DNA of 44,388 nucleotides from Candidatus Zhuqueibacterota bacterium (GCA_030950365.1 JAUZRQ010000047.1:1-44388); one strand, 5' to 3'; positions 20,950 through 25,628 are shown, numbered from the stretch's first letter. Program-made: numbers and translations. The notes: generated by a model not told the origin, from the sequence alone.

Positions 20950-21939
20950 ATGACGGAAGAAATCAAAAAACACCTGCAAATCAAGATCCCCAGGCACCAA
21001 TCGCCGCAACGCATCGATAAATATCTCGCCCAACATTTACCCGATATCAGCCGCGCATATATTCAATACCTCATTCAAACCCAATCGATTCTGGTCAACG
21101 GAAAACCGGTCAAGCCGAGCCACAAAGTGGTCCCCTCTGAACGGATTGACGTGTACCTCACCAGCAAGCCTGGCCCGGAAGTCCTGCCGGAAGACATTCC
21201 GCTGGATATCGTGTATGAAGACGAGGCGCTACTTGTGGTGAACAAGCCGGCCGGCATGGTGGTGCATCCGGCTTTCGCCAATTACACCGGCACGCTGGTC
21301 AACGCTTTGCTCTATCACTATCAGCAAAATCTGTCATCGCTGGGCGGCAGCGACCGCCCGGGCATCGTCCATCGGTTGGATAAAGACACCTCCGGTCTGA
21401 TGGTGGTGGCCAAGAACGACAAAGTGCACGCCGAGCTGGCGCGCCAGTTTTCCGAAAAAACCGCCTCGCGGAAATACCTGGCCGTGGTGTGGGGCAAACT
21501 GCCGCATCGGGAACAGACTGTTAGCAACTATCTAGCGCGCAGTCCGAAAAACCGCCTCAAAATGACAGTGGTGCAGGAGGGCGGCAAATGGGCCGTGACG
21601 CATATTCGCGTGATCGAGCAGTTCTCTCTGGCCGCATTAGTGGAAGCCCGGCTGGAAACGGGACGCACGCACCAGATCCGTGTGCATATGGCCTACATCG
21701 GCCATCCGGTGCTGGGCGATCCGATCTATGGTGGCCGCCGGCACGCTATCACCGGCCTGAGTCAGGATAAAACCGCATTCGCCGTGCAGTTGCTGCGTTT
21801 CATGCCCCGCCAGGCCTTGCATGCCTATGAGCTGCAACTCATTCATCCGCTGCAGGGCAAAGACATGATATTCGAGGCGCCGTTGCCGGAGGATATGCAA
21901 AAATTGCTGGCGGTGCTGCGCAAGCACGATTGCACATGA
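20950..21939 (+). CDS. rluD: RluD-type 23S rRNA pseudouridine synthase
   Basis: The 329-residue protein has an N-terminal S4 RNA-binding domain (RIDKYLAQHLPDISRAYIQYLI..ILVNGK) and the RluA/RluD catalytic domain. The catalytic aspartate is Asp144 in GIVHRLDKDTSG, and VVNKPAGMVVHP and LETGRTHQIRVHMAYIGHPVLGDPIYGG are diagnostic. It isomerises uridines in helix 69 of 23S rRNA if it is a true RluD; RluC-like specificity cannot be excluded. It starts 7 bases after lspA and is likely translated with it. A weak hairpin (CGCCC..GGGCG, 22036-22053) followed by a T-run at 22062 may end the operon. Confidence 0.93.
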   Translation: MTEEIKKHLQIKIPRHQSPQRIDKYLAQHLPDISRAYIQYLIQTQSILVNGKPVKPSHKVVPSERIDVYLTSKPGPEVLPEDIPLDIVYEDEALLVVNKPAGMVVHPAFANYTGTLVNALLYHYQQNLSSLGGSDRPGIVHRLDKDTSGLMVVAKNDKVHAELARQFSEKTASRKYLAVVWGKLPHREQTVSNYLARSPKNRLKMTVVQEGGKWAVTHIRVIEQFSLAALVEARLETGRTHQIRVHMAYIGHPVLGDPIYGGRRHAITGLSQDKTAFAVQLLRFMPRQALHAYELQLIHPLQGKDMIFEAPLPEDMQKLLAVLRKHDCT

Positions 21940-22156: not shown

Positions 22157-23821
22157 ATGTGGACCAGAGCAAAGGCCGTATCTTTATTGCTAGTCATGTT
22201 TTTCTTGCCGAGTTTTTCGCAAAGCCAGGTTGCCAGCCGTGAAAATTTTGCCTTTTTCCGTTCGGCCAGCCAGAGGCCTTCCGGCGACCGCGCGCTGATC
22301 CGGAAAATCAAGCGTCGCTATTTCGACGAGAACGCGCGAATCAAAGAGGTGCGCGGCAGCATGATCATTTCCGCTGATGATTATTTCGAGCGGGATATTC
22401 TGGTGATCGATGGCGATTTGCGCATTGCGGGTGAGGTGGAGGGCACGGTGGTGGTGATCAACGGCGATGTGTTTTTGCGGCGCTCGGCGCGTGTGAGTGG
22501 CAATGTGGTCAGCGTCAACGGCGAAGTGCACCGGACGAAAGGAGCGATCATCGTTGGTGAAATCATCGAGGCAACCATGCGCACCTCGACGCCGCCATCG
22601 AGGCGCACTCGCTACAAGCGCAAAACTTACGCCGAAGCGAAACCGGGACCCCGGCATGGTTACCGTGAGTGGCGCGAAAAGCCGCACCAGCCCCGCTACC
22701 GCTGGAAGCGGCGCACCCGCGAACCCATCGTGGAACGCTGGGAAGACCGTCAGGATGCCATTCTGTGGCGCTACAACCGTGTGGAGGGGCTGTTTCTGGG
22801 CATGAACGTGCCGCCGGGCTATAGCTATCGCCATGACATCATCAATTTCGATGTGCACGGGTTTCTCGGTTATGGCTTTGCCAGCAAAACCTGGCGCTAT
22901 CGTGCCTCGGCCGAGCTGTGGCTGTTCCGCAACACCCGGTTCCTCGTCGGGGGCACGGTGTACGATCTGACTGACACCCGCGATGAGTGGCGCATCCCGA
23001 CGGACGAGAATTCGCTGGCGGCCGGGCTCATCCGTGAAGATTTTCAGGATTACTACCGCCGCCACGGCTATGGTGTTTATGCGGCGCATCACCTGTTCAA
23101 TGTATTCCGGGCCCGATTTGGAATGTATCACGACGAATTCGAATCGATGCCCCTGGCGACGAACTGGTCGCTGTTTGGGGGAGACAAACGTTTTCGGCCG
23201 AATCCGGCCATCGAGGCCGGGCTTTCCAGGGCCGTGAAGGCCATGCTGATTATGGACACCCGCGACCGCCATGAAGCGCCGCGTACCGGATGGTATTTAC
23301 AAGCCGAAGCCGAATTCAGCCGCCCCGATCTTGGCAGCGAATTCGATTACCAGCGCATTGAAATCGATGTGCGGTATTACTGGCAATTGAATCCGGGCGA
23401 AAATCTGGATATTCGATTGCGAGTGGGCAGCAGTCGCGGGATGTTGCCGTACCATTACCAATTTTTTCTGGGCGGCGTATCCACGCTGCGGGCGTTCCGA
23501 TATAAGGAGTTCGCCGGCAACCGCATGCTGCTGGCCAATATCGAGTACCGTCTTCATTCTTGGAGCGACCGATTCCGCGAGCACGATCTCCTCGGCGGTC
23601 TCGACCTGGTGTTTTTCGTGGACCTTGGCAGGGCTTGGACGGCGACTGATACGCCGGATTTCTTTTCCGGCTTTGATGAGTTGACGCTCAAGAACCTGCG
23701 CGCGGATTTTGGCATTGGACTCACGGATGAAGAGGGTCGGGTACGGTTGAATTTCGCCCGGCGCATCGATGGCGGCAGAAAAAATATCGTGATTACCTTT
23801 CGACTCAATCGGCCATTTTAG
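22157..23821 (+). CDS. Bactofilin-like beta-helix fused to Omp85-type outer-membrane barrel
   Basis: The 554-residue product has a signal peptide (core AVSLLLVMFFLPSFS). Then comes a short right-handed beta-helix like that of bactofilins and other polymer-forming proteins: repeated DILVIDGDLRIAGEVEG, TVVVINGDVFLRRSA, SGNVVSVNGEV. An Arg/Lys-rich linker follows, and then a beta-barrel of about 340 residues with the Omp85 (BamA/TamA) signatures of the surface-antigen domain, including GGVSTLRAF, FAGNRMLLANIEYR and VFFVDLGRAW. It ends in an aromatic Phe (RLNRPF), as outer-membrane barrels do. POTRA domains are missing. The start at MWTRAK has GAGGGAAG upstream; the frame opens earlier at 22103. 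Two DUF4097-type exported proteins follow on the same strand. Role unknown; a surface or translocation channel is plausible. Confidence 0.8.
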   Translation: MWTRAKAVSLLLVMFFLPSFSQSQVASRENFAFFRSASQRPSGDRALIRKIKRRYFDENARIKEVRGSMIISADDYFERDILVIDGDLRIAGEVEGTVVVINGDVFLRRSARVSGNVVSVNGEVHRTKGAIIVGEIIEATMRTSTPPSRRTRYKRKTYAEAKPGPRHGYREWREKPHQPRYRWKRRTREPIVERWEDRQDAILWRYNRVEGLFLGMNVPPGYSYRHDIINFDVHGFLGYGFASKTWRYRASAELWLFRNTRFLVGGTVYDLTDTRDEWRIPTDENSLAAGLIREDFQDYYRRHGYGVYAAHHLFNVFRARFGMYHDEFESMPLATNWSLFGGDKRFRPNPAIEAGLSRAVKAMLIMDTRDRHEAPRTGWYLQAEAEFSRPDLGSEFDYQRIEIDVRYYWQLNPGENLDIRLRVGSSRGMLPYHYQFFLGGVSTLRAFRYKEFAGNRMLLANIEYRLHSWSDRFREHDLLGGLDLVFFVDLGRAWTATDTPDFFSGFDELTLKNLRADFGIGLTDEEGRVRLNFARRIDGGRKNIVITFRLNRPF

Positions 23822-23839
23822 TTGAACCAACGCAAAGCG

Positions 23840-24709
23840 ATGACCATGACCAGAAAGACCGGATCGGTCCTGAAATGGATGTGGGTGACAATGGCGCTGT
23901 TCGTCGGCGTACAAATGGCGTATGCACAGACGGATGTGATCAAGTACCGGCGCATCTTCGAGGTGGAGCCGAATCAGAAATTCCGCTTCGAAATGGATAT
24001 CGACGCCGCCGATGTGGAAATCGCCCGCAACGAGATCGAAAATGAAATCTCGGTGTATCTGTTGTTTACCGAAGATGCGTTTGAATACGATTTCGATTAC
24101 CACGCCCGTCGAAACATCCTGACCGTGGAATTTAGCAAAGTCAACTGGATCAAAAGCGATTCGCGCCATCTCAAGGCCAAAATTGAAATATTGCTGCCCG
24201 CTGAGGCGGTGCTGGATTTTTATGGTAAAATCAAAGCGGGTGAGGTCGGCATGCAACTGGGAGATCTTGCGCTGTCGCGCTTCGAGACCAGCATCTGGGC
24301 GGGCGAGGTGAGTATCGACTTCGATGAGCCCAACCGAATCCCGATGAAGTGGTTTGAATTGCGCACCAAAGTGGGCAGCACCACTTTGAGACGGCTGGGC
24401 AATGCCCGCTTCCGGTTCGCCGAAATCAATAGCGGTATCGGTGAGCTGGAGATCGATTTTTCCGGTCGGATGGAGAACGAAGCCACCGCCAAAGTCGATC
24501 TGGACATCGGCGAAACCAGCATTTATCTGCCCGATGATGTGGGCACCAAGTTGTATATTCGCAAATTTTTATTTCTGTCCGGCACAGACCTGCTGGGATT
24601 TGAGCGCTATGGCAAAATTTATTTGAGTGAAAACTACGATATGGCTCGCAAGAAGTTTGAGTTGCATGTCAGACCGGGAATTGGTGAGTTGAGCATTCGG
24701 TATCGGTGA
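23840..24709 (+). CDS. Exported beta-rich protein (toastrack/DUF4097-like)
   Basis: The product (about 289 residues) has a signal peptide ending near AYAQ and then an almost entirely beta-strand protein. Alternating hydrophobic strands such as AEVGMQLGDLALSRFETS, LRTKVGSTTLRRLGNARF and AKVDLDIGETSIYLP suggest a flat beta-helix of the DUF4097/LiaF C-terminal (toastrack) kind. The C-terminal HVRPGIGELSIRYR repeats the G-x-G-E-L/V motif. It starts almost at the end of the Omp85-fusion gene. TTG 23822 abuts that stop codon, and ATG 23840 is my choice, although the ribosome site is weak. The DUF4097 gene follows after 54 bases. No enzyme motif is seen; a periplasmic or surface structural role with its neighbours is inferred. 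Confidence 0.68.
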   Translation: MTMTRKTGSVLKWMWVTMALFVGVQMAYAQTDVIKYRRIFEVEPNQKFRFEMDIDAADVEIARNEIENEISVYLLFTEDAFEYDFDYHARRNILTVEFSKVNWIKSDSRHLKAKIEILLPAEAVLDFYGKIKAGEVGMQLGDLALSRFETSIWAGEVSIDFDEPNRIPMKWFELRTKVGSTTLRRLGNARFRFAEINSGIGELEIDFSGRMENEATAKVDLDIGETSIYLPDDVGTKLYIRKFLFLSGTDLLGFERYGKIYLSENYDMARKKFELHVRPGIGELSIRYR

Positions 24710-24763
24710 GCATACAACGGCGGGAATCGCTTCCGCTCGAGTATATCAAAGGGAGGTGATGGC

Positions 24764-25570
24764 ATGAGAGCCCAAAAAACGACATTGCTGTTCTTTCTGT
24801 TTGCCTTTCTGATGGCGAACGGGATGTATGGCGGGGAGCTGGAGGAAACGTTTGATAAAACCTTTCCGCTGGAAAAGGGGCAGCATTTTTCTTTGAAAAA
24901 CACCAATGGCTCGGTCCGGCTTTACGGATGGGATCGCCAGGAGGTGCGCATTGAGGCCATCAAAAGGGTGAAAGCCGCTAGCCGCAGCCAGGCCGAGCGC
25001 ATTATGCAACAACTGGAGATTCAGATTGAACGCACGGATGCGGGCATCTTTGTGGATACGATCGTGCCGATCAGCCTCAGACACGGCTTTTTGAGCTGGC
25101 TCTTCGATGGTTTCAGTTCGCATGGTGTGGAGGTGAAGTATACCATCTGGCTGCCGAATGATGTACTTTCTGAGGTGCGCACCGTGAACGGCTCCATTTT
25201 CATCAATGAGCTTCGCGGCGATATCAACGTACGCACCACCAATGGCCGAATCCGCGTAGAAAGTGCCAGTGGCAGCGTGAAAGCCAACACCACCAACGGC
25301 TCGGTGAATGTGGAGCTGGTGGAGGTGGAGCCGGGTTCGGAAATTCGTATGCGCACGACCAACGGCAGCGTGAAGCTGTATTTGCCAAAAGATTTTGCCG
25401 GTGAAATCAAAGCCAGAACCACCAACGGTTCTATCACCACAGACTTCCCGATCGAGGTCATGGGTCAGCTCAACCGCCGGCGGCTTGAAGGCCGTATCGG
25501 GGAAGGCGGCGATGTGCTGTGCGATATTGCCACCACGAACGGCTCGGTCAAGATTCTGCAAATCGAATGA
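24764..25570 (+). CDS. DUF4097-type exported beta-helix protein with T-N-G-S repeats
   Basis: The 268-residue product has a signal peptide (core TLLFFLFAFLMANGM) and a DUF4097-like repeat domain. The short motif T-x-N-G-S/R recurs at least seven times: KNTNGSV, RTVNGSI, RTTNGRI, NTTNGSV, RTTNGSV, RTTNGSI and TTNGSV, spaced about 17-25 residues. This is the signature of a left- or right-handed beta-helix with one turn per repeat. A strong GGGAGGTGAT precedes ATG. It is the last gene of the three-gene envelope cluster, followed by a terminator. DUF4097 proteins are often called putative adhesins, and no activity is known. Confidence 0.82.
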   Translation: MRAQKTTLLFFLFAFLMANGMYGGELEETFDKTFPLEKGQHFSLKNTNGSVRLYGWDRQEVRIEAIKRVKAASRSQAERIMQQLEIQIERTDAGIFVDTIVPISLRHGFLSWLFDGFSSHGVEVKYTIWLPNDVLSEVRTVNGSIFINELRGDINVRTTNGRIRVESASGSVKANTTNGSVNVELVEVEPGSEIRMRTTNGSVKLYLPKDFAGEIKARTTNGSITTDFPIEVMGQLNRRRLEGRIGEGGDVLCDIATTNGSVKILQIE

Positions 25571-25595: not shown

Positions 25596-25628
25596 GCGGT
25601 ATCCGGATTGTGGGTACCGCATTTTTTT
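25596..25628 (+). terminator. Rho-independent terminator of the envelope cluster
   Basis: GCGGTATCC (25596-25604) pairs with GGGTACCGC (25612-25620) over nine positions, with one G-T pair and a 7-base loop. A is followed by seven T. It lies 26 bases after the DUF4097 stop codon. Confidence 0.85.

Follow-up and report, generated by a model that had tools for sequence, protein, structure and literature searches.

A POTRA-less Omp85 barrel fused to a bactofilin-like β-solenoid and encoded with two predicted Toastrack proteins in Candidatus Zhuqueibacterota

Introduction

Most Omp85 proteins are considered to work through their POTRA domains, which serve as a handle. In the classification of Heinz and Lithgow (2014), which recognizes ten Omp85 subfamilies, those without POTRA domains include noNterm, metallo and WD40, and none of the ten has a solenoid (PMC4104836). 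PlpD, a patatin-Omp85 protein, keeps its POTRA and carries an additional, enzymatic N-terminal domain that is periplasmic (PMC11116518). Here we analyzed a 44,388-nucleotide stretch of DNA from Candidatus Zhuqueibacterota bacterium (GCA_030950365.1 JAUZRQ010000047.1:1-44388; hereafter the window), in which three genes of the + strand, called A, B and C, lie between positions 22157 and 25570. An initial annotation had described the product of A as a signal peptide, a bactofilin-like β-helix and a POTRA-less Omp85 barrel in one chain, and those of B and C as two exported DUF4097-type proteins. Sequence, Pfam matches and a fold model agree with this description of protein A, and both B and C can be assigned to the Toastrack proteins.

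Protein A shares with noNterm Omp85 proteins the barrel and the absence of POTRA, but the latter by definition have no N-terminal domain (PMC4104836), whereas A has a conserved solenoid at amino acids (aa) 42-142. Like PlpD it bears an extra N-terminal domain on an Omp85 barrel, but without the POTRA and the enzyme domain. BamA, TamA and Sam50 have the 16-stranded barrel fold, the L6 motif and the FxDxG motif in common with A, which differs in having a solenoid in place of their POTRA domain(s); no partners of the BAM or TAM systems were seen among the neighbors of A. In TpsB and type Vb–Vd systems, POTRA domain(s) precede the translocating barrel, unlike in A. In 25 of 27 A orthologues the first part of the barrel is matched by the family DUF5686 (PF18939; aa 204-349 in A itself, below the curated cut-off), which suggests that it is a sister barrel family. 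Bactofilins (PF04519) resemble the solenoid in being short β-solenoids with weak, repeated sequence similarity to it. They are cytoplasmic, however, whereas the solenoid of A is predicted to be exported and capped, is fused to a putative outer-membrane barrel, and has no C-terminal interface Phe.

DUF4097, DUF2154 and DUF2807 have been unified as Toastrack, a domain with a β-helix fold that is a partner of the PSP and Lia envelope-stress systems and is predicted to be intracellular (PMC11237479). B, of the LiaF C-terminal type and with the fold of 4QRK, and C, of the DUF4097/LiaG type, resemble these Lia/PSP Toastracks. They differ from them in their signal peptides, in that no further transmembrane or SHOCT region was seen, and in that the genome encodes no PspA. 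In the open-access literature, a search that left most subscription papers and preprints outside its scope, no paper joins bactofilin with Omp85 or DUF4097 with Omp85. Together with the comparison to the ten subfamilies, this agrees with the earlier view that the architecture is undescribed. POTRA-less barrels themselves are already known, and it is the solenoid–Omp85 fusion with conserved operon partners that constitutes a new Omp85 architecture.

Results

Judged by its sequence and predicted fold, protein A (22157..23821, 554 aa) is a member of the Omp85 superfamily, with a 16-stranded barrel at its C-terminus (22760..23818, aa 202-554) that ends in Phe. The Omp85 family of Pfam matched aa 362-535 above its cut-off (E=9.6e-18) and was found in 27/27 orthologues. 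The fold model, for which 50 members of the family were aligned (mean predicted local distance difference test score (pLDDT) 82.9), placed 16 barrel strands within aa 202-554. A Foldseek search with this model returned BamA barrels as the best matches (E=8e-16), and structural comparison with VIA gave Z scores of 24.0 for Sam50 (root-mean-square deviation (rmsd) 4.1, 311 residues aligned), 23.2 for Deinococcus BamA (rmsd 5.0, 302 aligned) and 23.0 for TamA (rmsd 3.8, 285 aligned). The matches listed by both programs were barrels only, because the barrel fills the list. When a profile of A was compared with the PDB, Omp85 proteins and a weak bactofilin match (6RIA, E=0.11) were obtained; the same search with the single sequence yielded no usable match.

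In Omp85 proteins, an arginine of loop L6 pairs with the FxDxG motif of strand β13. Protein A has LRAF (aa 443-446), a motif of the (V/I/L)RG(F/Y) type, in L6, between strands 11 and 12, and FxDxG at aa 487-491 of strand 13 (F487, D489, G491). LRG is the commonest form of the L6 motif among the orthologues, most of which have LRG or LRA. Of the long loops, L6 and L3 (22976..23053, aa 274-299) are the best conserved in the family, both with about 3.0 bits per site, as compared with 1.9 in the solenoid and 0.7 in the linker. Such conservation in outer loops suggests that L3 and L6 are folded across the barrel or into it.

No POTRA match was found on the contig of the window. There were nine elsewhere in the genome (4.98 Mb in 136 contigs), including a five-POTRA protein on contig C37. 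The gene directly upstream of A encodes not a POTRA protein but an rluD-type pseudouridine synthase (20950..21939, + strand), a conserved 5′ neighbor that lies outside the module.

The N-terminal part of A begins with a predicted Sec signal peptide (22157..22228, approximately aa 1-24), which is followed by the β-solenoid (22280..22582). In the fold model the solenoid starts with a cap α-helix (aa 43-55) and continues with nine short strands at aa 62-139, mostly with pLDDT >90, forming about 4.5 rungs; its turn glycines are invariant. The Bactofilin family of Pfam matched aa 83-125 of A below the gathering score (19.5 versus 27.9 bits, E=1.2e-3) and was detected in 19/27 orthologues, one of which passes the cut-off (28.9 bits). 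Alignment of the solenoid profile with 12 true bactofilins from relatives using hhalign gave a probability of 88% (P=2.8e-6). Combined with the orthologue above the Pfam cut-off, this result indicates that the solenoid is bactofilin-like, and perhaps homologous to bactofilin. The interface Phe of the bactofilin C-terminus was absent from the last solenoid rungs in 14 of 16 sequences, and the other two have a stray Phe. Considering the predicted cap helix, this missing residue and the roughly 4.5 rungs, we found no support for the earlier description of the β-helix as polymer-forming. An ordinary, separate bactofilin is encoded on contig C77 of the same genome. The solenoid is joined to the barrel by a linker (22583..22759, aa 143-201) that is disordered in the model (aa 144-197, pLDDT <50) and measures 22-69 aa across the family.

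Protein B (23840..24709, 289 aa) and protein C (24764..25570, 268 aa) are, by their domain matches and the fold predicted for B, Toastrack proteins with a β-helix fold. All 23 B orthologues matched LiaF-like_C in Pfam, and 11/23 matched DUF4097. B matched PDB entry 4QRK (E=1.8e-16), and its fold model (pLDDT 89.8) aligned with the same entry in VIA (Z 18.0). C, in which T(T/V)NGS motifs are repeated, matched DUF4097 above the cut-off, with LiaG and LiaX as the nearest named families, and is the sole DUF4097 match of the whole genome; a search of the PDB with C alone gave nothing significant, and BLASTP produced no alignment between B and C. Like that of A, the N-termini of B and C resemble signal peptides without a lipobox, and both proteins are predicted to be exported. 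PspA had no match in the genome, and PspC was found only on another contig (C126), not beside Toastrack genes. Thus neither PspA in the genome nor PspC or a LiaI-LiaF-TM protein beside a Toastrack gene, which would mark a PSP/Lia system, was present.

The gaps between A and B (18 bp) and between B and C (54 bp) contain no terminator that we could find. The three genes have a single terminator in common downstream of C: an intrinsic-terminator-like hairpin followed by ATTTTTTT (25596..25620, + strand), which is the best terminator of that strand and the sole plausible one outside genes. Shine-Dalgarno-like sequences are good for A (GAGGG) and C and weak for B, whose start may be at either 23840 or 23846. 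No σ70-like promoter was found 5′ of A, a result of little weight in such an organism.

The closest named relative of A, with 74% identity, belongs to 'candidate division KSB1 bacterium isolate S140_5'. Scanning contigs with the A sequence alone revealed no relative, whereas an alignment-based scan, whose loci also supplied the family alignments for the fold models, found the barrel family in KSB1/Calditrichota, Ignavibacteria, 'Bacteroidetes' bins, Gemmatimonadota, Zixibacteria, Latescibacterota and Eisenbacteria. The solenoid was found in every one of these groups except Latescibacterota, so that the fusion itself recurs across several phyla. Among 60 related genomes, 45 had a strong match to A and 45 a strong match to B, the latter mostly in single copy, and the co-occurrence of the two exceeded chance (Fisher p=0.006, uncorrected for kinship and incompleteness). 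In the 38 genomes with both, B followed A on the same strand at a distance of at most 400 bp in 20, and in another 6 the two were no more than 3 kb apart, which makes them close neighbors in 26/38. Neither of the findings that would have contradicted the initial annotation, a POTRA domain upstream of the barrel or genes that are not neighbors in relatives, was obtained, although A and B are separate in the other 12 genomes. A frequent gene order was lspA-rluD-A-B, followed by C or other genes.

Regulatory genes adjoin A at a few loci. In a distant relative (L138:4948-10729), genes for a sigma factor of the extracytoplasmic function type, a zf-HC2/HEAT protein, a 466-aa Toastrack protein, A and B run in one direction in an operon-like arrangement. 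A Toastrack gene is located directly 5′ of A in a Gemmatimonadota genome (L118), and at three loci of Zixibacteria/Eisenbacteria type (L147, L156, L159) A adjoins a σ54 response regulator, accompanied at L147 and L159 by a HAMP histidine kinase. Combined with the Toastrack identity of B and C, these sigma/anti-sigma and response-regulator neighbors favor a role in envelope stress or maintenance. They point to such a role instead of the surface assembly or export module suggested initially. Separately, a DUF4390 protein is encoded 3′ of A at L156.

Discussion

We tentatively propose that A, B and C form an Omp85 module for envelope maintenance, with solenoid and Toastracks serving in place of POTRA domains as docking surfaces in the periplasm, a reading that we regard as plausible but short of probable. 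A would be an outer-membrane Omp85 protein whose capped solenoid, on a flexible tether, stands where the POTRA domains would be, and B and C would be soluble periplasmic Toastrack proteins supplied from the same operon, possibly within a shared complex. The β-sheet surfaces of the solenoid and the Toastracks could then dock periplasmic partners or clients beside a dynamic Omp85 barrel, and the barrel may assist in the insertion or passage of some substrate at the outer membrane, probably when the envelope is under stress. The broader claim that this is an unreported, widespread Omp85 class, regulated together with envelope stress, in which a β-solenoid with Toastrack partners takes over the POTRA function in binding clients or partners, strikes us as rather doubtful.

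Several observations weigh against this proposal. In the window itself no stress regulator adjoins the A-B-C operon, and a minority of orthologues have P, N, Q or H at the position of the L6 arginine. Of the 38 genomes with both A and B, 12 have the two genes apart (five of these genomes belong to order f2, and in several the genes lie at contig ends), indicating that joint action of the two proteins is not obligatory. In a tree of 79 barrels, made by a quick method and containing several long branches, the solenoid occurs on the majority of branches, and its presence changes at least seven times; the barrel persisted through repeated loss or replacement of the solenoid. At one locus (L123) B even follows an A without a solenoid. 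Taken with the repeated loss, this indicates that the solenoid may be dispensable.

These separations and losses, together with a solenoid-less paralogue in the same genome, would be expected if A were an ordinary noNterm Omp85 porin or assembly factor whose N-terminal domain is incidental and interchangeable and whose operon neighbors B and C are unrelated to it. However, most of the family has retained the solenoid, with a conserved sequence, across several phyla, and close adjacency of A and B is repeated in many families. We consider this explanation unlikely.

Alternatively, the solenoid and a basic linker could attach to peptidoglycan, or to some other polymer of the periplasm, and keep the outer membrane in place, with the barrel acting mainly as an anchor. 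Solenoids are rigid spacers, which one clade has in three copies, and the linker in the window has 19 K/R versus 8 D/E (net +11). This charge is not conserved, ranging from −14 to +11 among relatives, and a basic peptidoglycan-binding linker was therefore rejected as a family-wide feature. Moreover, the barrel keeps Omp85 motifs and highly conserved loops beyond the needs of an anchor, and a purely structural tether appears improbable to us.

Type V secretion systems typically carry right-handed β-helices as passengers. The barrel of A could accordingly be imagined to export its own N-terminal β-helix to the surface, in the way that TpsB exports the β-helical TpsA and that PlpD had at one time been suggested to work, and both the flexible linker and a weak ShlB/TpsB match in 7/27 orthologues would suit such a passenger. 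By contrast, two-partner translocators use POTRA domains, of which A has none, and the barrel resembles those of Sam50, BamA and TamA. The coiled-coil and CBM48-like N-termini found on A-type barrels would also be odd in a dedicated passenger system, and the N-terminal domain of PlpD turned out to be periplasmic (PMC11116518). We therefore hold export of a passenger to be quite improbable. The weakest alternative is a true extracytoplasmic bactofilin filament, in which the solenoids of many A proteins would polymerize beneath the outer membrane; the Bactofilin and hhalign matches speak for it, but the predicted N-terminal cap helix and the C-terminal rungs without the interface Phe make it very improbable.

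A broadly conserved Omp85 family whose N-terminus is modular and unrelated to POTRA (one or three solenoids, a coiled coil or a CBM48-like domain) would make it possible to ask which parts of the mechanism reside in the barrel alone, and how the envelope is kept up in relatives of Bacteroidota whose phyla are for the most part uncultured. In addition, B and C are candidate Toastracks with signal peptides, as opposed to the intracellular location predicted in the PSP survey (PMC11237479).

The N-terminus of A-type barrels varies among the relatives. Orthologues of about 716-804 aa with three solenoids before the barrel were found at ten loci (L042, L044, L045, L046, L050, L051, L053, L054, L056 and L059), and this form, of which L088:8842-11076 is another example, is one group on the tree. 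Other barrels have coiled-coil-like N-termini or short tails. In Eisenbacteria an AMPK1_CBM/CBM48 match is fused to the barrel (L158, L159), the order at L159 being solenoid, CBM48 and barrel. The paralogue in the genome of the window (L002, G000:C60:16094-20158) is a POTRA-less barrel of 408 aa without a solenoid, 33% identical to the barrel of A; it adjoins a 464-aa, POTRA-bearing Omp85-like protein, and similar solenoid-less barrels recur across relatives. Two further protein clusters were observed near A and B. In several families the genes adjoin that of an exported protein of about 570 aa with approximately four repeats and only a very weak AMPK1_CBM match (cluster c8; L064:7960-9669 and relatives), and a membrane protein of about 200 aa with a weak UPF0259/DUF975 match (cluster c4; L065:2629-3234 and relatives) is encoded a few genes past A and B.

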